Shown: positions 2,032-25,600 of the stretch, in pieces
How the letters are laid out: each line of letters begins with the position of its first letter
How positions within the stretch are numbered: position 1 is the stretch's first letter
From: Xiphophorus maculatus
Lineage: Eukaryota > Chordata > Actinopteri > Cyprinodontiformes > Poeciliidae
Direction of reading: 5' to 3'
Length of the DNA stretch: 64,000 nucleotides
Assembly: GCF_002775205.1 (NCBI RefSeq)
Contig: NC_036450.1
Location: 18,061,479 to 18,125,478 of the forward strand
Translations under genes and position numbers: made by a program
The notes under the pieces: model-generated
Seen by the model: only the letters and a program-made list of their open reading frames with translations
Database searches by the model: none
Told to the model about the DNA's origin: nothing

Positions 2032-3577
2032 TCACTCTGTGCTGGGCTGTGGGGCGTTCCCAGGACCACAGCCGCAGCTGCGGTTCACCTCAATTGGGGA
2101 GATGACGATGGTGCCGGTTTCATCCATGTAGACAATATTCAGTGTTTCCTGCACAGTGGGCTGGCAGCATGGCAAAGGATCCTGAATGCACAAAGGGATC
2201 TAAAGTCAGTCTATATAGCACACTATAGGACCCTATAAATAATAAACATTTAAATGAAATATAAATTATAACTTGATTATATAAACATGTATGGTGTACT
2301 AAAAAAAATCGTCCTACTTTTGCTTTGGAAATTTCAAAGCAAAGCATTTTAAAATCATTTAGCCTAAACACACAGCAGATATTAAATTATGTTATAATCT
2401 TGTGTTTCCCAAACACTTTTTTATCAAACAGGTACATGCAGGGTTACAACCAGAAGGAATGTCTTGCAGTACATTTATTACTTTTGGAAGTAGAGAATTG
2501 AATTGCTCTTGACGATTCCTACCTGTGAGCTGGCATCTTGGACACCGGAGGAGGATGAGGGACATTGCACGGTGCCCTCTGCAGGGTTGCACAGGGCACA
2601 CTGAACAAAGGTCAGGCTCAAAGGATGGATCACCCAGCTGTCCCAGCTAAGGTCTGAAAGGTTACAAAATATAATTATTACAATTAAATAACATTTAAAA
2701 AACAGTCTTGAGTACATTCTAATTTTTAGTCTTCACTCAGTACCTTTCATGGAGATCTCGGAGGCTACAGAGCAACACTTCAGGCCTGTTCTGTTTCCAC
2801 TGTCATGCGATACAGAGTAATCAGTGGCTGCTGGAGAAAGAGGGACATTGTCAGTGTTGGGTACAAACTACTGACACATGGGATTAGATCTGACCACCTG
2901 GAGTTGATTCTTTGTAATATGAATTTCACGTACGTGCCGTCTTTTTTGCAGCTTGAGGAATGAAGCCGATTGTTCTCTGCCACTGCTCACGGATGCTATC
3001 TATCCCACCAGCAGGCAGCTGTGGCTCAGCCTGCAGGTTGAGAGCCCTAAGGAGACCCTTCCTGACCGACTGCAATGACTCGTCCTTGCACCTGAATATT
3101 AAAAACAACATGTTAAAAATGATCAAAACGAATGTATCGACTAAGGTTTTCATTAGAATTTTTTTTAATTTTATTTTATTGCTTAAGTGAACTTATGCAA
3201 TAAATGAAACAAAATAGCACTGCGGAGACGATTGAAAGGGGAGTGGTGCGGTATTTTATGATAAAAGGTTGATGCTTGAAAAGAAAATGTTTGCAAAAAT
3301 GTAAAAAGAAATTACCCTGAGTCACATATAAAGTTTATTATTCATTTATGGTAAATGCTTACACAATGTTTCACATCATAGAAAGACTAATAGAAGATTA
3401 TATTCTACATGCACAGAAGAATATAAAGACTTAAATCATATTTTCTATAACTGACCTTTGATGAGACAATGAAGAAATAGCAGGGACTGTAGGCTCCTCA
3501 TTGGATGGATGCAAGACAAATGCAGTCGTCTTCGAAAAACCAAGAAGTGCCATCATGCCAATGAATGCAAAATACAT
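2032..3577 (-). CDS. gsdf: Gonadal soma derived factor (TGF-beta superfamily), complete
   Basis: Fish-type secreted TGF-beta relative made by somatic cells around germ cells, acting in early gonad and sex differentiation (family knowledge). Exons (complement): 3456-3577, 2934-3091, 2744-2830, 2523-2653, 2032-2181; phases join cleanly to give 215 residues. Residues 1-19 are a signal peptide (MYFAFIGMMALLGF...TTA). The C-terminal knot shows CC at 112-113, the TGF-beta-like stretch DLSWDSWVIHPLSL at 123-136, C141/C144, C171/C172 and the final CGC at 202-204. The C141-A-L-C144 step lacks the glycine of the usual CxGxC, a known Gsdf trait. N-glycosylation sequons are at 106 and 199. No clear RxxR furin site is seen. 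Exon 3 has two adjacent AG acceptors (2831 or 2828). The start at 3577 is chosen because it begins the signal peptide; an in-frame ATG at 3637 would add a non-signal leader. Lies beside ppef2/nup54 as expected. Confidence 0.9.
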
Positions 3578-3712
3578 GCTGGGATGTGGAGTGAGGCCAA
3601 GGCTGGTTCCAAAAGAATAAAGATGGCAGTTCTTCACAGATGTCTTCTTGGACGAGGTGTGGAGACGAGGATGCTGCGCAAGGTACTGTTACACGGGGTC
3701 TGGGAACCTGAG

Positions 3713-3720
3713 CTTTTATT
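3713..3720 (-). promoter_or_regulatory. gsdf: TATA-like box of gsdf
   Basis: The minus strand reads AATAAAAG about 136 bases before the gsdf ATG, which would place transcription start near 3685. It is an imperfect TATA match. The position is inferred, not measured. Confidence 0.4.
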
Positions 3721-3736
3721 TTCATTCAAGACAGTG

Positions 3737-3745
3737 TGACCTTGA
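3737..3745 (-). promoter_or_regulatory. gsdf: SF-1 (Nr5a1) type site upstream of gsdf
   Basis: The minus strand reads TCAAGGTCA, an exact match to the classical SF-1/Ad4BP half-site (YCAAGGYCA). It sits 17 bases upstream of the TATA-like box. SF-1 is a gonadal and steroidogenic activator, so the site suits a gonad gene. A single 9-base match can occur by chance. Confidence 0.5.
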
Positions 3746-3753
3746 GATATTTA

Positions 3754-3760
3754 ACATTGT
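3754..3760. promoter_or_regulatory. gsdf: DMRT-type core upstream of gsdf
   Basis: The plus strand reads TTTAACATTGTTGTC here; the core ACATTGT and the following TG match the DMRT1 consensus around TACATTGTTGC. It begins 9 bases beyond the SF-1 type site. Dmrt1 is reported in fish as an activator of gsdf, so the pairing is suggestive. Confidence 0.45.
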
Positions 3761-4045
3761 TGTCTTGTCCCAACTCTGTGTGAAAAAGTGCAAGGAGGAC
3801 GGTCCGACAGAGGAAGACTAGTAGACTCAAGACAAACACACCAGCAGGAAAGGTGGGAAGAAGACAAAATTAACAGAGCCACACGTGTTGCAGTATGCAC
3901 TTGAAAGTACAACAGTGTCACAGGACAGAGCTGTGACTGTTCCAGCCGAGTGACTTAATATTATATCAGCTCCTGGAGTCACATTTACAGGTGATGCTCT
4001 TTTGATGTTTTGGAGTTCGTTCTGCCAAAATTTGTGTAATTACCG

Positions 4046-4215: not shown

Positions 4216-4280
4216 TTAGAGCATGATGCTGACTTCATGTGCTTGGGGTGATGTACTACATGTACACTTACTTACATATA

Positions 4281-4647
4281 CAGCTCTGGGAAAAATTAAG
4301 AGATCACTTAAAATGATCAGTTCCTCTGATTGAACTTTTTATAGGTATATGTTTGAGTAAAATGAACATTGTTATTTTATTCTATGAACTATTGACAACA
4401 TGTCCCAGAAATTCTAATCATAAATTTTGTATTTAGTTGCAGAAAATGAGAAATGGTCAAAAAAATGAGAAACGATGCAGTGCTTTCAGACCTCAAATAA
4501 TGCAAAGAAAACAAGTTCACATTAACTTAGACACAATAGTACCAATGTTTTCACTCAGGAGGAATTCAGAAGTCAATATTTGGAGGAATAACTACAAAGT
4601 TTTCAATGGGGTTCAGAGCAGTGGTCTCTTAATTTTTTCCAGAGCTG
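4281..4647. mobile_element. Non-autonomous Tc1/mariner MITE, copy 1
   Basis: Begins CAGCTCTGGGAAAAATTAAG and ends with its inverted form (CTTAATTTTTTCCAGAGCTG), flanked on both sides by TA (4279-4280 and 4648-4649), the Tc1/mariner target duplication. The inside keeps the left end of a longer fish Tc1-like element plus a short piece of the body (AATGGGGTTCAG) before the right end; the transposase is deleted. A second copy lies at 7595-7910. It sits about 700 bases upstream of gsdf. Confidence 0.85.
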
Positions 4648-4649
4648 TA

Positions 4650-6520
4650 TATATGGGTCTGTTCGTGTCTGGCCTTGTATTTGGTACATTGTGGGTACTA
4701 ACTGCTCCTTATGGGGCCCCATAAGAAGAAGTGCTGTTTTGGGGTTAGGGATTATGTGGCTTGAGTTTAGATTAGATTTAGGTTGATGGTAATGGTAATT
4801 GTTAGGGTAAGTATCAGGGTTAGACTATAGAAATGAATGAACAATGAATGCAAGCCAATGTAAAGTCTTTCTGAAGAGAGAAATACATACTGTGTGTGTA
4901 GGTGCATGCATGTATGTGTGTGATGAAAAAAAGATTGAAAAAAGATACAGATAAAAAAAATGTAGCTCAGGTTTTCTATTGTGAACATATATTTATGTAA
5001 GGAGTTAAAGATTGCTCCTGAGCTTTTGGTTTAATTTGTTAGTTGAACTTTGACATGTACAGAGTAGTGAAAGATAATTACCCATTGCTACTGAGGAAAA
5101 GAATACCTGGAGTTTGTTTAGTTTAGATAAGAGTGGTCATAGTTGTGAAATTTGAGGTTGATTTGTTTATGGAGCATTAGCAGCTAAACCTCCCTCCTGA
5201 TTCTTTTTCCAGTTATTTGAGCTTTGCAGCATTTCTTTTGTAAGTCAGAAAGGCATAATTGTATATTAGCCTAAGTTATCTGTACCTCCTGATTGATTAT
5301 TAACTCTGAATGTTAGCTGTATTTTAACAATAATTTACTGAACTTACATCTATGTGTAAATTTTTTTTAGCCAATAGCAAATATGCGAAATCATGTTAAT
5401 TTGCTTATGTTTCTGATAAAAATAAATAAATCAAAATAACTCAATAGGGGCAATATTTTGTATTTTCCAGGCACAGAGTGCCATTTAGAGCACAATTAAG
5501 TTGTTACAAAAATTCTATATTTCAAATGGAACTTAAAAGAAATTTCAGTTCCCAATTGGATGCTGTGATTTTTGATTAACAATACAGAAAACATATTTTT
5601 ATTTATATATTTTTAAATGGAAAGAAAAAAACAGCGACCATTCAGGAAGCACAACAGCTTTATTTCATTTCTTATTTTCCAGTTTGAGATCCACCCCGGT
5701 GTGCTGATGATGGCTCCTAGCCACACCACTTGAACAAGCTCGAGCTTGTGTTATCTCAGAGTTTAACCGGGGTCAAACTTGTGCAAGACTTGGATGTTAG
5801 ACACGCAAGAGGTTACAGAGGCTAAGGGGCAGCTGTGCCACCCTGAGCGGGGGTGTCTGCAGGTGCACCTCTGTGTGAATGTACAACCAGATCCCTTGTA
5901 TATATTTGGGTTAAACCAAAAATATCAAATAGTCTTGTGATGGATTCAATCTAGATTTAAAATATGTTAAGAATTGCACAAAACTGTAGACCATGATATC
6001 TGCATATGGTTAATTATCTGCTTTTATGCATCTCTCATTTCTTGGCTTGAAATCACAGTGAGCTGCCTCACATGATAAACACAACAACATCGTTATTCTT
6101 CTGCAGTCATTTATCAAGGACACGGTAAAAATGCAACAAACAAATCCGAAAAATTGCTGCAGGTGATGTTATCTGGAAATGTAGAAAAAAAAAAAAAGAC
6201 GTCTCGGGGTTAAGAGTTGCAGTACACAGTAGCGCTTTGTCCTTAGGTTCCCTCAAATAAGATCCCCTTGCCAAAAACGAAGCACAAGTAAAAACTTTCT
6301 CATGAGGCCCAAAATGGGGCATTGCTCAGGTGCACTTGATATCAAACCATATTTCAGCAGAGAGCCAGAGGAATGTCTGCTACAAGCAGAAACAAGACAG
6401 AAGAAACCATGAGAGGAATTTTAAGTGCCGACCATGATCAGAATGTTGCGTGTTAGATTTGGACCTGGAGAAATAAAACAAGCGGGAGCTTTGTAGCAGT
6501 TAACACTTGTGTATCACAGT
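4650..6520. other. Spacer without recognised gene
   Basis: AT-rich sequence. A locally GC-richer block at about 5690-5870 stands out (TCCACCCCGGTGTGCTGATG, then GGGGCAGCTGTGCCACC) but has no long reading frame and was not recognised as a repeat. Confidence 0.3.
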
Positions 6521-6970: not shown

Positions 6971-7594
6971 TGACCTTTTCTGATGTGGTCTATCAAATAA
7001 AATTCCAATAAAATCTATTAATGTCACATTGATGAGGACCCAAATGCAAATAGGACACCGGTAGACATGGGATGGAATATGGAATGATGGATTTAAACAT
7101 TTTAAATCATAGTAGCTTATTAAAAGACACAAGAAAAATCAACAAAGGAACCACTGCAGAAACCTGCAAGGAGCAGTTAAAGTGAGAGAACTTAAAAACT
7201 GTGGAGGTGTAAGTGTGACATGTAAATCAGGTGCGTACTGTCAGATTTGGGAACTGAGAACAAGAGACTAATGGCAAGACAGAAACATGGAATAGATAGA
7301 AGAACAGCAAACCCTGAGTAAACAGGGATAAATATAGAAAATATAGAAATAACTCAAAACGCAAGATTCAAAATACTTCTGTGTTTTGGATGAAGAAGAA
7401 AACTCTGTGATTGACAATTTAAGTATTAAAAAAAATTATTGGCATGCTCTTACTGCATATATTCTATGTAAATATAAATTTTTACAATGTATATTTTATA
7501 TAACAATGTCAAAGCATTTATTTGATCAAGTTATTTCATTATTCAGTAAAGGTTGGGACAGTTGAGATGCATGTTATATGATCTGTTATCCATA

Positions 7595-7910
7595 CAGCTC
7601 TGGAAAAAATGAAGGGACCATTTAAAATGATCAGTTTATTTAACTTTTTATAGCTATATGTGTAAGTAAAGCCAATATTGTTCCTTTTTTCTATGAAGTA
7701 CTGACAACATGTCTCTGAAATTTAGTATTCATTTGCAGAAAATGAGAACTGGTCAAAAATAACAAAAAGATTATGTGCTTTCAGACCTAAAATAGTGCAA
7801 AGAAAACAAGCTCATATTCATTTAGGAACAACAATACTAATAAAGAGTTGGAATAACCATGAGATTTTCAATGAGGTTCAGTGCAGAGGTCTTTTTTTCC
7901 CCCACAGCCG
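7595..7910. mobile_element. Non-autonomous Tc1/mariner MITE, copy 2
   Basis: Starts CAGCTCTGGAAAAAATGAAG after TA (7593-7594) and ends with a decayed inverted end before TA (7911-7912). The interior matches copy 1 over nearly its whole length (for example TTTCAGACCTAAAATAGTGC and GCAGAAAATGAGAACTGGTC). More diverged than copy 1, so probably older or under no constraint. Confidence 0.8.
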
Positions 7911-8309
7911 TATGTATTCAGTTTTTGATGTTTACTTTCAGTGAAATATTTTCAAGTTGCTATTTTGTCATTTGTACCCATCTAAAGAGATTAAATCCTT
8001 TAGCGAATGCGATATCGTTTACCTGTTTCATGGATTTGTACTATAAAACATTTGTGAGCTGCTCGACAAGTCTCAACAATTCTGCTGAGGGCTTGGTCAC
8101 AGGTATCAATATGTCCCATTATCTGCAGGTCTGAACTTCTCCTAGCATTGGCATGACTGTCATAATTGTATGACTGTTAACACGTACACACATACAAAAA
8201 TACAAGTGATGTTTATTTGTTTATTAAGATTTCCGTTAGCTGCAGTAGAACTACAGATATTCTTACTGTGGTCCAACAGAATTATGTTTACATAAAAGAA
8301 AAAATGTAT

Positions 8310-13190: not shown

Positions 13191-16100
13191 ATGGGATGCA
13201 GCATGGGAAAATCCAGAATCCAGCCGAACAAATGTGACAGAGGTGCAAAGTTTTTCTTTAGTCTTTTAATTGAACACAACTTTAAACAAGTCCTCTCTTT
13301 AATTTCTGAACTTCAGTGTAATATTTTTTTTTTGGTCATTTTCAGTGAGCATTTCTGTTCCAGGTAATTTTATTTACCTTCGTCAAAACCTTAATTATTA
13401 AAATCTGTACTCAGACTTCTCATTTTGTGTTTAATTGCTGTAATCTTAATCCAAATTTCATGCACTCGGAATAGCTGCCACGGGTAGGTTGTTTCCTTTC
13501 CAGAATATTTATTTTGAATTAGTACTCCAGGTCAAAGTGTTCCAAACACCCAGAAAAAAAAAAACACTTGTTGGTTCTTGGAGGTGTTTTATTATGTTTA
13601 AGAAACTTTCTTCTGAAGCCTAACAGCTTAGATATCCTAAACAACTAGTCGAAGAACATCCCCTTGACTGAATTTCAGAGAAACAATGCCACTTAGACAC
13701 GTTCCTGATGTTTCCTTCTGCTGTTTCTCAGCAATTAGAGCAGCTTTGCTGATCCAGCGCTGGTATCGACAGTATGTTGCCAGGCTGGAAATGAGACGCA
13801 GGTGCACATGGAACATCTTCCAGTCTATTGAGTATGCAGGCGAGCAAGATCAAATAAAGGTGAGGTCAAAATCTTTGCACAGAAAACATTAGCCTCCAAT
13901 GTGTGAGTAAAAATATTTATAAATATTTATACCTTGCAAAAGAAGAAACCTTGTAAACTTTGTCACTGTGCAACCACAAATTGAATGCATGTTATAAAAA
14001 TTTTATGTCACAGAAAAACACAAAGTGGTGTATAATTGTGTAGGTATAATCTGCGGCCCGTTCAATCCATCCTCAAAAAGTGGAAGGAGAATGTCACAAC
14101 CACAAACCAATTAAATTATGGCTTCCCAGCAACGCTGACAGGCTGAGGAAGGAGATTATTCATTGGAGAAGTAGCCAAAATGCCCGTAGTTACTCTTGAG
14201 AGGGTGCAGTGATCCACAGACATAGATTGGAGAATCTGTGATGGTAACTATAATTTCTACACTCTACAAATCTGAACTTCGTTGCATAGAAATAGCAAGA
14301 CAGAATGGCAGTACTGAAAGAAAGTCAGAAATGTTTCATTTTTGGAGTTTGCAATGAACCACAAGACACGTGGAAGAACGGGTTCTGGCCAGATAAATAA
14401 AAAATAAAAATAAAAAAGGCTCAACCTTGATAAAAAAAAATAATTTTGAGATGTCTGTTGTAAGAACTAAAGCACTCTTTGGAGCCCCCTGCTGGTTTGG
14501 AGAACCCAAGCAGCAGTTTACTTCATGTTCTGTTTTGGGTCAGCTATGAACGTGTAAAGAAACAAAACAATAATAATAAGTGCATTTAACTGTTTTTTTG
14601 TATGCAACATGTGTTCTGTAAACTAGTTCATGCTCTTTGTACTATTGGTTGCCTTGATGTTAGTGGACTGCACATTACAATCAATGAGTTTAGTTTAGAG
14701 CTATCTTCATGTAAATAAACATGTAAAGAAATGTTTTTCTTCATTCAAACATTTAAAACTCTGGTTCCTCTCACAGCTGTATCATTTCTTTGGCTTCTTG
14801 ATGGACCATTTCACCCCAGCCAGCAGTGAAAGTAAGAGAGTAATTGTCAGCTATAATCACTTTAACCCTCCTGTGCAATATCTTTTATTTATCAACAATC
14901 TGCTCCTTATTCCAAGATTTAGATTCACTTTCATATTGATCCACTTCCTTTTTACTTCCTCTCTGTGTTTAATGAAGGAAACCTAATCTCTCACATCTTT
15001 CGTGAGAATGAGGTCTGCCATGATGCAGACTGGGAAAGATATTTCTGCTACAAAGACATAGAGGTACCGGACAGCTACTGCGGCCCCCACTTGACTTTCC
15101 CCATGACGTTCTGTGGGGTGTCCAAGCTAATGGAGGCTTTCAAGCTGAAACAAGTAGGTGCATTGGTTCATGAATATGTAAGATAGATTAAAAAAAGCCC
15201 AAATGAGAAAAGAAGATAAAAGCAGGAGCTTCTAGGTTTTCTTGGATAATTTATACATGTTTTTCTCCCAGCAGCAGCTCCACGCTCGTTATGTTCTGCA
15301 GATTCTTGGAGAAACTTGGCGACTTCTAAGAATCCTTCCAAACATCAATCATGTATCGGTCTGCCACACTAAGGAGATTACAATATGTGGTACACTGAAG
15401 TGGCTCTTTCTAGGATCTTCCACTAACGTTTTATTTTACTGCCTAAGTAACATTCTGTTTATTACAAATGTTTTTTTGTTCTCAGGAGATTTGCATGGGC
15501 AGCTTGAAGATCTGCTATTGATATTCTATAAGGTATAAAAATATATATAAGATATATCTTCAGTCAGGAAGTCCATCTTAATTTCTTTGTTTTTTATCAG
15601 AATGGTTTACCCTCATGTGAGAAACCTTACATCTTCAATGGAGACTTTGTGGATCGTGGCAAGAATTCTTTAGAGATCCTGCTCATCCTGTTTGGGTTCC
15701 TGCTTGTTTACCCCAATGAAGTGCATCTGAACAGAGGAAACCATGAAGATCACATTGTTAACTTGAGGTAAAATCTTCACTTTACCTTTACACTCCCAAT
15801 ATCTTCATGTTGCTTAAACATACAACATTTTGTCACATTACAAGCATATACATCAATATATTTTATAACATTGCAGACATTTGTGAAGTAGAAGAAAAAT
15901 AATCCAGAATTTTTTATATATATATATATTTACAAATAAGAGTCTGGAAGGTGCCCCCTTTACTTTGACATGCACAAATAAAATCTAAATAATAATAATA
16001 ATAAGAAGAAACAGTACAGAAACAATAGGCCTTCGCAGCGCTTTGCTGCTCGGGCCTAATTAACTGAAAGCCTACAAAGGCCACTAAATTACAAAACTGA

Positions 16101-19100: not shown

Positions 19101-20931
19101 CAAAATCAAAGTTATTTTAAAATACCCAATTATCTTGTGCTGAAATTTCAATTTTATGTTCAACATCAAGGATTCTTTTCATTATTTAATTAATTTGAAT
19201 TTTACTAAACAGATTTGTAGATTCAAGCAAATACCCAAAGGAAATTCAATTAACTAAAACAAAGGTTTTTCCAAGAAAATTATGTTTCTTTGCAACTTCA
19301 GTCTTTTACTCCTATTTGTAAACTGAAAAAGTATTTTGACGGCTTTCGGCTGCTTTTCCACCAGTGTTGGCTGGACAGAGAGATCAGCCCTGCGAGCGCT
19401 CAGGCAGCAACTGTTTGTGCACAAGTCGGATCTCATCGGTGCCTTCCAGGAGTTTGACCCAAACAACACCGGTACAGAAGTAGCAGAACCACTGATCTCA
19501 ATACCAGTTAATGTGACAGCGGCCCCCCGAAAAGTATCTCTATTTATTTCAGGGGTGATTTCTCTACGCCACTGGGCGACAGCTACAGAGAGAGTGCTGA
19601 AGCTGGGTTTGCCTTGGAGGGTGCTGCGCCCCCAGCTCATCAACAGGGCCCAGCACGGCATGGTGGACTACCAGCAGTGGATACGAGAGCTCTCCATCAC
19701 TGAGCCCAAACCAGAGGTGTCTTCCTTAAAAACATCTTCTACTCGCTGCTCACTCTGTTCTCACGATTACTTTGAAACATGAGAAAGTAATTTCAAACTC
19801 CTGGCAGGTGTCAGATACCAGCATCCTGGAGACAATGTACAAAAACCACTCTAACCTGGAGACCATCTTCCGCATCATAGACACAGATCACTCAGGTGAG
19901 CAAGACGCAGTGGACGTATTTTTCATCTGTGGAGGGCCAAAGAAATGCTAAAATGTAAGAATAAATTATTATATTCTTACTTTGATCCCTCATAGTTAAA
20001 TTTAAACAGGAAATAAATATCTAAAATAAATGAAATAGATCTGTAACCAATCATTTACATTTGTCAGCTGATCACTAAAGTAAAATATAAAGGTCATTGA
20101 TATCATGTTGAACCAGTTTTTTTTTCCCCTGGTTTCTGTGGTGCGTTGCCACTATCACGTTCTGTATAATTATTAGCCATGACTTTTAAATTATTACTGA
20201 AATTGTTTAACTGGCCATAGAAAAAGCAGCAAAGCCGCCTGAAAAAGTATACCCAAACTAAATCAAATTCAATTCAAAAATCACCAAAATTTTAACCAGA
20301 TTTAGAAATAAAAATGCATAATTTTCTTAAAATTGTTCACCATATTTTTTTAAAATTACATTTAATGAACCATGCTGTAGTTTGCAATTTTAAGAAAATT
20401 ATGCAATTTTATTTCAACATATTTTCCAACCTTCTAAAACAATTAATCACCATTTAATCGTGATATATTCGAATTCTCCCTGCAGAACAAGAACCAATGT
20501 TCTTAAATACTGAAATATTTGTGCTTACTTAAATCCTTATCTACAGAGGATATTTGAAAGAACTTTCAGATACTGTATATACATGCTGGATTTTAAATGA
20601 ATCTGCTTCCAACCTAATGTTATTGAGTCACTTCTACTAGTAGTTGACACTCCTCTTTTGCTCCATCTGTTAAACTTATACAAATCAACGAGACACCAGC
20701 CCGATCAAAACAATGATTAAAGTGTACAGTTCTCCCATTCTTCTAGGTTTGATCTCTTTCGAGGAGTTTCGTCAGACTTGGAAGCTCCTGAGCTCCCATC
20801 TGAAAATGGAAATCAGTGATAAGGCCATCACTGACCTGGCCCAGAGCATGGACTTCAACAAGGACGGCAGCATCGATATCAATGAGTTCATGGAGGCCTT
20901 TCGCTTGGTCGACCTCTCCACACATGCTTGA
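13191..20931 (+). CDS. ppef2: Serine/threonine phosphatase with EF-hands 2, complete
   Basis: Protein phosphatase of the rdgC/PPEF family, linked to calcium signalling in photoreceptors (family knowledge). Exons: 13191-13242, 13732-13859, 14777-14831, 14978-15153, 15275-15389, 15486-15532, 15601-15767, 16665-16701, 16791-16940, 17032-17379, 17973-18158, 18289-18431, 19365-19471, 19553-19716, 19808-19895, 20747-20931; all phases join, giving 715 residues. Seen in order: MGC start (possible acylation), IQ motif at about 20-38, GDLHGQ 176-181, GDFVDRG 205-211, GNHED 237-241, HGG 290-292, IRSHEC 470-475, SASNYY 493-498, a degenerate EF-hand near 560-590, then good EF-hands DTDHSGLISFEE (650-661) and [12 protein letters not shown] (690-701). 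Exon 10 (310-425) is a basic, serine-rich insert in the catalytic domain. IQ-region wording ([17 protein letters not shown]) favours PPEF2 over PPEF1. A second in-frame ATG lies 6 bases upstream of the chosen start. Exon 5 has NAGNAG acceptors (start 15272 or 15275). Confidence 0.93.
13925..14455 (+). mobile_element. Tc1-like remnant in ppef2 intron 2
   Basis: Starts with a terminal-repeat-like stretch (TATACCTTGCAAAAG, CAACCACAAATTGAATGC) and continues into sense transposase DNA: GTTCAATCCATCCTCAAAAA, GTGATCCACAGACATAGATT, CTCTACAAATCTGAACTTCG. Truncated before the right end. Confidence 0.7.
15810..16530 (+). mobile_element. Tc1-like remnant in ppef2 intron 7
   Basis: Contains ACATTTTGTCACATTACAAG, a GTGCCCCCTTTACTTTGACA segment, GTTGTGAAGAAATTTAAAGC and GGAAGATGGTGCTCTGGTTA, all typical of the same fish Tc1-like family, in sense. 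An AAT microsatellite (about 15990-16003) and a short palindromic insert (GGCCTTCGCAGCGC / GCTGCTCGGGCC near 16030-16057) interrupt it. Confidence 0.65.
18190..18213 (+). repeat. AAT microsatellite just after ppef2 exon 11
   Basis: About seven AAT units followed by an A-run, about 30 bases into intron 11. Confidence 0.8.
18666..18689. repeat. Perfect 24-bp palindrome
   Basis: Two 12-base arms without a spacer; the first arm reads TAATAGCAAGAA. Lies in ppef2 intron 12 beside a retrotransposon tail. Confidence 0.85.
18690..18942 (+). mobile_element. Non-LTR retrotransposon 3' tail
   Basis: Ends with GCAATGACAATAAAGTTGAA followed by tandem TTCTA units, the typical 3' end of a fish LINE or its SINE partner. 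The upstream part (CTACATCTCGTTGCTTGTAC) fits the same 3' untranslated tail. No ORF2 sequence is present, so it is 5'-truncated. Confidence 0.65.
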
Positions 20932-22609: not shown

Positions 22610-25600
22610 TCAGCTCAGGATGCCCCCTCTCATGTGGCCGCCGTCGCTTAGTCCATGTTCTATGAGTTTGATGTCCTCCAAGTCATCTTTAATGACGCTG
22701 ATCAGGTGACTTAAGCCTTCTTGTTGCTGCTTTAAGTGCTGGAAATGTGAGGCAAGATAAGAGTGTTTCCGTTAGAAAACAACAAACATCTCATCTAGCG
22801 TTAACTCATATTATGCAGTCGGTGTAAAACAGGCAAAAATATTTCTGAGTAATTCTTACCAATCTGATAAATAAAAGCCTTAGATTTATAAACAGGCAAA
22901 AAGATATCCTACTTGTTTGATTTCTCGGAGGAGATCTGCATCGACGTTGTAGCGCTCTTCTGATCTCACGGCTCCAAAGTGGTTCTGCATTCGAATTTGA
23001 GACATCAGCTCATTCAATCGACCCTGGATAGGATTAAAAACAAACACAAATTACACATGGAATAAAAAGTGTCTAAATTACAACAGGAGTTTGATCCCTA
23101 CGAGTGAGAAAGACTAATACACTACTTTAGATTGACTGTTGTAAGACTGGAACTAACAATATTATTCTATCGATTATTCAGATAATTAATCAGATTTTAA
23201 AAAATGAACACATTCTGTCTCAGATTTTCACTTAAGATTTTATACAATATTAGAAATGCATTAAAGAGATACAAATAAGTAATCCAATACCTTTTATTAA
23301 ATAAGAAAACATATAGCTTATTGCCCAAAGTGCAACAGAAAAGCATTCCTTTAGTGAACACTTGATCATTAGCATAAACCAATTAATAATTAGATGCAAA
23401 AGATGCTTCATAGGAAATTATGGATTTTCCAAAATTTGAACCAGGAGAATCTAAATCTATGACACTTTCAGAGTTCTGGGTAGAACATACCTATATATAT
23501 ACTGTATATATATATATACATATATATATCTTAAAATGCTAAATGTATATATTTTTGTACAGTTTTGGCGTAATTACTGTTCTGACAGCGTCGTTCTTTC
23601 AGCAATCTGTATGCTTATGATTCATCAATCAATAAAACAGTTGAACATAATTGACTAATCACGATAAATCGTTTCAAACAAATTCTGATCAAATTGTAAA
23701 ACCTACAAATGTGATAATATCCAAGCGACATTATAAGTCTACTTAAAATTAAACACTTCAAAAAATAAGGCTTCTTATTGGACAGGACACACTTGCCTTG
23801 AACTGTGTGGGTGCATTGAGTTCTGACTGAATGGTGTCCAGCTGTACCCTCAGATGCTCCTCATCCACTTGGATAGCGTAGCCGCTTTTTCTCTGAATCT
23901 CCTGCTTTATTAGTACCTTCCAGGAAAAATATGCCAGAGTTATCGAAGATGAATTTATAGAGCTGGGAGAGAAGCGGATGGCGCCAGGACATTCCAACTT
24001 GATATAATTTACACATGCTGCTCGATGCGGTTTTGCTATTTGTGGGAGAAAGAAGGGATCTGAAATCTCCCTGACAAAATATGGGTCAGTAAAGTGGGGT
24101 GGAGACAGCTTAAAAGTTGTGTCTGTGTCATTCACAGTTTTATGTTTTTGTTAACTAGACAAACGAAACGCACACATATTTAATTAAATTGAATGCAGAA
24201 ACTACCTGCAGCACCCTGTGAGACAGATCCATCAGCTTCCTCTTGTATTGAGCGATCTTGGCTACAGTTGTTGCCTGGTTCTTCTGCAGCTCACTGATGT
24301 CATTGGAGATTATCTGAAAGTGCACAAAGGCGGCAAACAAAGACATCTCATTAAGAGACTTTTTTTTTTTTCTTTACCTTTAGATTTTATCACCTCCCTG
24401 CACCTGCATCCATCCCACATTGTGGCCTTGTTGTGGCCAAGTTACAGAAAAACTCTTGGAAAGATGTTTGTTATGAAAACTCCCTAGATTTGGATATAAA
24501 AGTTCTAATTTTCTAATCCCATTTATGCAGGTGCTTTTTGAATGTTTTTCCGCTTCAGATTAGGTTTATAAAGTAAAAACCCAAATCTTCTGTAACTAAA
24601 CCCAACTTCATAGTTATTTCCCTTAAGTCGCATCCAAATTAAACTACACTGGAGTTACAAACACAAGGACCCAAGGTTATCCAAGGCTTTCATTTGAAGT
24701 CTTCAATAAGGAAACATTTTCTGAAACACTCTTCCTCCCGCTGATTGCTCTGGTATTTCTAATATTTCATGATGAAAACAAGCAGCTGGCAGTGAGGATT
24801 GACTGGACATCTGCGTACCGTCCTTGACACCAGAAGTCTGCCTCAGAATTCCTTTTCTAATAACCAGGTGGCTTTTGCCCATTTTCTTGCCTTTTCTTCT
24901 AAACCAGGGGTGTCGCACTCCAGTCTTCAAGGGCCGCTGTCCTGCAGTTTTTAGATGTGCCACAGGTACAAAACACTGGAATGAAATGGCTTAATTACCT
25001 CTTCCTTGTGTAGATCAGTTCTCCAGAGCTAATGACCTAATTATTCCACTCAGGTGTGGTGCAGCAGAGGCTCATCTAAAAGTTGCAGGACACCGGCCCT
25101 TGAGGACTGGAGTTTGACACCTGTGTTCTAAACCTTTGCTAAATGTAGAAACAAAAAGCAAAAGATATTTTTACTTACATCCACTCTGGTCTGGTGTTGC
25201 TTGGTCATCTGCTCCTGGATCTGCAATCTGCGGAGCAGCTCCTTGAAACCCACCATGGGTACGGGGATTAACCTGAACATTTATGGAAGGCGGTTCAAGG
25301 ACAAAACCTAGGATGATTTATGAGCTCTTTGGATAGAAGCAAGAAAAAAATAAATAAAAAAAACATATTCCAACTTACTTCTCTGGGTCAGGGTTGTCCA
25401 CCTTAGCTTGTTCCCAAATGATGGGATCCACACCTGGTGATGGCAAAAAGGAGGTAATGCGGTTAGCTGATTTTAACAACAAAATGACCAACCTGTTGGT
25501 AAACATATGTGCACATATTTACCTGCAGGAGCGTTCTGCAGCAGCTGTTTCAGCTGTGCTGGGGACAGCTCTGTGCGTGTTACTGACATGACCACTCCAA

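Follow-up and report, generated by a model that had tools for sequence, protein, structure and literature searches.

Upstream of the gsdf gene of Xiphophorus maculatus, we found a DMRT-type site, an extended NR5A half-site and a TATA-like box that together span 136 to 183 bases before the ATG of this minus-strand gene. They probably represent the X. maculatus copy of a conserved proximal gsdf promoter block driven by Nr5a1 (SF-1) and Dmrt1. The combination of SF-1 and DMRT sites is already published for gsdf of other fishes; what the analysed stretch of 64,000 nucleotides (the window) appears to add is one more species. Feature coordinates are collected in Table 1.

Table 1. Features located in the window (positions count from its first letter).
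Feature	Position	Strand	Remark
gsdf exon 1, coding part	3456..3577	-	ATG at 3577-3575
gsdf exon 2	2934..3091	-	GT/AG junctions
gsdf exon 3	2744..2830	-	TGF-beta domain starts
gsdf exon 4	2523..2653	-	TGF-beta domain
gsdf exon 5	2032..2181	-	TGF-beta domain and stop codon
TATA-like AATAAAAG	3713..3720	-	16 bases downstream of SF-1 site
NR5A (SF-1/LRH-1) extended half-site TCAAGGTCA	3737..3745	-	motif search
DMRT-type site AACATTGTTG	3753..3762	+	core ACATTGT 3754-3760; WACAWTGTWK at 10/10 positions
SOX-type heptamer AACAATG, complement of DMRT-type site	3755-3761	-	full WWCAAWG match
IQ motif ORF	13668-13892	+	match at its cut-off
Metallophosphatase ORF	15532-15768	+	single-ORF domain scan
EF-hand ORF	20674-20928	+	single-ORF domain scan
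Nup54 ORF	23761-24150	-	single-ORF domain scan

The gsdf gene is intact: its five coding exons are joined across GT/AG introns and encode 215 residues in one open frame. Its product contains a TGF-beta domain (Pfam TGF_beta, E 2.3e-10, 41.6 bits against a cut-off of 27), and GDF5 and BMPs are the closest solved chains. The genes nup54, aff1, klhl8, ptpn13, and sdad1 are described as conserved gsdf neighbours (PMC12989411). Here, one of the five was found, as a Nup54-type ORF about 20 kb from gsdf. By its TGF-beta domain and its Nup54 neighbour, the gene fits gsdf.

Family matching at E 0.001 of the 109 stop-to-stop ORFs of at least 78 amino acids in the window retrieved Nup54, CD36, metallophosphatase, and EF-hand families. 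To place the matches, 30 ORFs were scanned singly (29 of the 109 and one shorter, which carries the IQ motif), and four of them matched, none to CD36. The IQ, metallophosphatase, and EF-hand matches belong to a gene, which we take to be ppef2-like, between gsdf and the Nup54 ORF. At the edge of the window, a minus-strand reading frame starts within positions 1-139 with a signal-peptide-like beginning, MTGYFTVCLLAFGLLSHLLLATG, and runs off the window end.

The search for gsdf in the 704-Mb genome (101 contigs) returned five matches at the locus and five distant ones with 27-35% identity, which we take to be other TGF-beta family members; no second gsdf copy was found in this search. The promoter stretch 3600-3830 matched only itself across the genome. 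A within-genome comparison of two gsdf promoters was ruled out, with a single gsdf copy found and a promoter stretch that matches itself alone.

The preliminary description of this DNA had placed a TATA-like box, an exact SF-1 site, and a DMRT core upstream of gsdf, the SF-1 site and the core being separated by 8 bases. Each of the three motifs was confirmed at its place, and the coordinates bear out the gap of 8 bases between the SF-1 site and ACATTGT. With the A of the start codon as reference, the DMRT core has its 5' end at -183, the SF-1 site at -168, and the TATA-like box at -143. For the DMRT core the description was even too modest, since the whole of AACATTGTTG matches WACAWTGTWK, the Dmy consensus quoted in PMC4726206. 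The 2 kb preceding the gsdf ATG contain no second site of this kind. Likewise, apart from TCAAGGTCA, these 2 kb hold no YCAAGGYCA and no AAGGTCA on either strand.

The box AATAAAAG is a variant, and neither strand of the 700 bases ahead of the gsdf ATG contains TATAWA. In TATA-box promoters generally, the box precedes the transcription start by about 30 bases.

Around the SF-1/DMRT pair we also observed inverted arms of seven bases, CAAGACA at 3727-3733 and TGTCTTG at 3761-3767. Each arm contains AGAC or GTCT, presumably a Smad-type core, and the arms are possibly a product of chance.

An element of 377 bases whose 33-base inverted ends are 94% complementary lies at 4276-4652, some 500 bases farther upstream than the gsdf sites. 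It has at least 39 further copies with 85-87% identity, counted among the 40 places that were scored from 1896 initial candidates. A degraded relative of the element at about 7592-7914 can be aligned along almost the full length, with several gaps. The element looks like a short non-autonomous DNA transposon, and we assume it to be Tc1/mariner-like. It carries an ACATTGT of its own at 4366-4372; the likeness between the element and the DMRT-type site covers 14 bases, too short to be a sign of descent. A mobile-element origin of the gsdf sites was rejected, the nearest element seen being about 500 bases away and the promoter stretch having no other copy.

Evidence for a conserved block comes from a comparison of the 5-kb upstream regions of gsdf in ten teleosts (PMC12989411, 2026). 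A block adjacent to the start site was found in seven of them (sea bass, seabream, bicolor damselfish, orange clownfish, pinecone soldierfish, medaka, and tilapia) and not in the other three. For sea bass gsdf1, the predicted sites relative to the transcription start site (TSS) were SOX1/3/5/8 together with Dmrt1 at -111, Nr5a1/Nr5a2 at -98, and GATA2/3/6 at -71. Using the equivalence given there for sea bass (-168 from the TSS is -259 from the ATG), these sites convert to about -202, -189, and -162 on the ATG scale.

The sites in X. maculatus lie on the same side of the same gene and in the same order, with SOX/Dmrt1 upstream and Nr5a downstream (PMC12989411). The distances to the ATG are also similar, about -202 and -189 in sea bass and -183 and -168 here, where the distance to the start site is judged from the ATG. 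From start to start, the two sites are 13 bases apart in sea bass and 15-17 here, depending on the motif edges. This likeness is one of order and position, without an alignment of letters. The preliminary description had proposed comparing the stretch across teleost gsdf promoters; with the published positions, order and place agree and the GATA part is missing, as the 600 bases ahead of the gsdf ATG hold no WGATAR that could be the counterpart of the published GATA site. AATAAAAG starts 25 bases after the start of the SF-1 site, and the sea bass GATA site starts 27 bases after that of Nr5a. The GATA call in sea bass may therefore be a core-promoter element, and we suspect that different motif libraries have given two labels, GATA there and TATA-like here, to one and the same element. 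A search of the main text of PMC12989411 for the term TATA gave no hit.

Read in this way, the promoter would work as follows. In gonadal somatic cells, a monomeric NR5A receptor, most likely SF-1/Nr5a1, would occupy TCAAGGTCA and make the gsdf promoter competent in the gonad. A second factor, most likely Dmrt1, would bind AACATTGTTG just upstream of the SF-1 site and raise transcription from the TATA-like box below it, more in the male than in the female gonad. Transcription of gsdf would start below AATAAAAG. From the motifs and the precedents in other gsdf promoters, we infer that the copy works as in other fishes and that the upstream site is read mainly by Dmrt1 rather than by a SOX protein.

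Two features of the sites qualify this scheme. DMRT1 tetramer sites have G/C at -6/+6 (PMC9713387), a feature that the site here lacks: with the middle base of ACATTGT taken as the centre, both positions are T. The DMRT-type site may therefore be a weaker, dimer-type one. Moreover, the centres of the SF-1 and DMRT sites are 16 bp apart, about 1.5 turns at 10.5 bp per turn. We infer that the two proteins would sit roughly on opposite faces of the helix, where both can bind and direct contact is not favoured, so close spacing alone is no argument for contact. The preliminary description had held that this spacing suits joint binding; occupancy by both proteins is compatible with the geometry, and contact between them is disfavoured by it. 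Its interpretation of the sites as a Dmrt1 and SF-1 pair keeps the gene, the place, and the published precedent on its side, and is weakened by the missing tetramer flanks and by an upstream site that suits SOX equally well.

This last point leads to an alternative that we hold to be rather unlikely: the block is real, and its upstream site serves a SOX protein (Sox3, Sox5, Sox8 or Sox9 type) beside Nr5a1, with Dmrt1 acting elsewhere or inactive. SRY and SF1 reportedly act together on the mammalian Sox9 enhancer. The complement of the DMRT-type site, AACAATG, is a full match to WWCAAWG, the sea bass predictions put SOX1/3/5/8 and Dmrt1 at one position (PMC12989411), and Sox3 raises gsdf in O. 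dancena (PMC8292791). The same review, citing Gautier 2011b, describes SOX and SF1 motifs in the gsdf promoter as common to zebrafish and three other teleosts, and lists no DMRT motif among them. SOX cores are common, however, with 177 matches to a DMRT or SOX core in the window, and the other strand fits the Dmy consensus at every position, permissive though that consensus is (12 window matches). Reporter assays and ChIP on the gsdf promoters of other fishes likewise speak for Dmrt1 and Dmy (PMC9275722, PMC4726206, PMC4728440). The SOX and DMRT readings share one site, so the sequence cannot decide between the factors.

As for the downstream site, TCAAGGTCA might be used mainly by Nr5a2 (LRH-1) or by an estrogen-related receptor, resulting in granulosa and Sertoli expression, which we regard as unlikely. 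Estrogen-related receptors prefer sites of the TCAAGGTCA type. Nr5a2 is named beside Nr5a1 at the sea bass site (PMC12989411), and LRH-1 binds the extended AGGTCA half-site as a monomer and is required in mouse granulosa cells (PMC9713387). Nevertheless, Sf1 is the factor that was assayed with Dmrt1 on gsdf promoters (PMC9275722).

A more speculative reading, which we consider quite doubtful, is that AACAATGT / ACATTGTT is one dual site for DM-domain and SOX proteins, a shared working site beside a fixed Nr5a site. If true, it could be a socket for unrelated master sex genes (dmy in O. latipes and sox3 in O. dancena), and base changes there could shift gsdf up the sex-determination cascade. 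A near precedent is a figure legend in PMC4728440, in which potential sites for Dmrt1 and Sox3 are placed in a prototype of the gsdf promoter. In the open-access passages surveyed, no description appeared of one site that serves master sex genes of both the DM-domain and the SOX families. The new part, again with little probability in our view, would be that the Dmrt1 and SOX positions form a single working site.

Returning to the SF-1 and Dmrt1 block, the single motifs do not clearly exceed chance in the window. We found one TCAAGGTCA against 0.85 expected, 23 ACATTGT against 19.5, and three YCAAGGYCA against 2.52; for WACAWTGTWK, 12 sites stand against 6.65 expected, and the count of 12 was reached in 6 of 100 shuffles. 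The pair does beat chance. In 64 Mb simulated with the dinucleotide make-up of the window, allowing a gap of up to 20 bases and any side and orientation, the exact pair arose 10 times, that is 0.010 per 64 kb or about 5 in 100,000 promoters of 300 bp; this and the following figures assume that gsdf was chosen beforehand, and the reader behind the preliminary description knew of the gsdf link. The pair of YCAAGGYCA and WACAWTGTWK arose 8 times, BCAAGGYCR with ACAWTGT 57 times (2.7e-4 per 300-bp promoter), and a loose SF-1 motif with a DMRT or SOX core 462 times (about 2e-3 per 300-bp promoter). A chance origin of the two motifs, in an upstream region rich in A+T, is very unlikely: the counts of the single motifs and the looser definitions speak for chance, and the rarity of the exact pair speaks against it, as do gene, position, and order, all as predicted from independent published promoters (PMC12989411).

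In the real 704-Mb genome, the pair in the same orientation with a gap of 4-14 bases occurs at 11 places, and a reversed control pattern at 16. Three of the 11 have a common spacer (CTCGGG or CTCAGG) and look like repeat copies. The pair is thus rare and shows no enrichment over the control across the genome; it is no general mark of gonadal genes, and we rejected it as a general gonadal grammar. Its evidential weight comes from its placement in the one promoter where it would be predicted.

The regulation of gsdf is relevant because turnover of sex chromosomes in fishes has repeatedly targeted this gene. The gene was the target in O. luzonensis (PMC8292791), and turnover involving gsdf is also described in Atlantic halibut, with sablefish as a candidate. 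The accounts of halibut and sablefish, like one of A. burtoni, served as background and yielded no motifs to compare. A compact single-copy element of an Nr5a and a DMRT/SOX site at a fixed place would be a simple object for studying the control of male gsdf expression.

Among the known systems, the gibel carp shares with our promoter the factor pair, Dmrt1 and Sf1, on gsdf, the factors here being predicted from their sites. Three Dmrt1 and two Sf1 sites were predicted there within about 2.1 kb of promoter (PMC9275722), whereas X. maculatus has one full-consensus site for each in 2 kb, 8 bases apart. Dmrt1 activated the gibel carp gsdf promoters in a dose-dependent manner in the presence of Sf1, and mutation of Dmrt1 site 1 or 3 lowered the activity (PMC9275722). 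Mutation of site 2 had no significant effect, so a matching motif can be idle. Activation of gsdf by the two factors is also described for the Nile tilapia and the spotted scat (PMC8292791, PMC12989411), whose Sf1 and Dmrt1 sites are required according to the review PMC8292791.

In medaka, Dmy binds gsdf upstream DNA by ChIP (PMC4726206, PMC4728440). The likeness is that of a DM-domain protein on gsdf upstream DNA: AACATTGTTG fits the consensus of PMC4726206, and binding here is predicted from that fit. Medaka has two putative Dmy sites within 4 kb (PMC4728440), compared with the single consensus site in 2 kb here. Besides, gel shifts showed binding of Dmrt1a and Dmrt1bY to the medaka site CTGCAACAATGCATT of another promoter (PMC2820524); this site has the run CAACAATG in common with the minus strand of our sequence. 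Thus, the link of Dmrt1 and SF-1 to gsdf activation, named in the preliminary description, is established in principle in other fishes.
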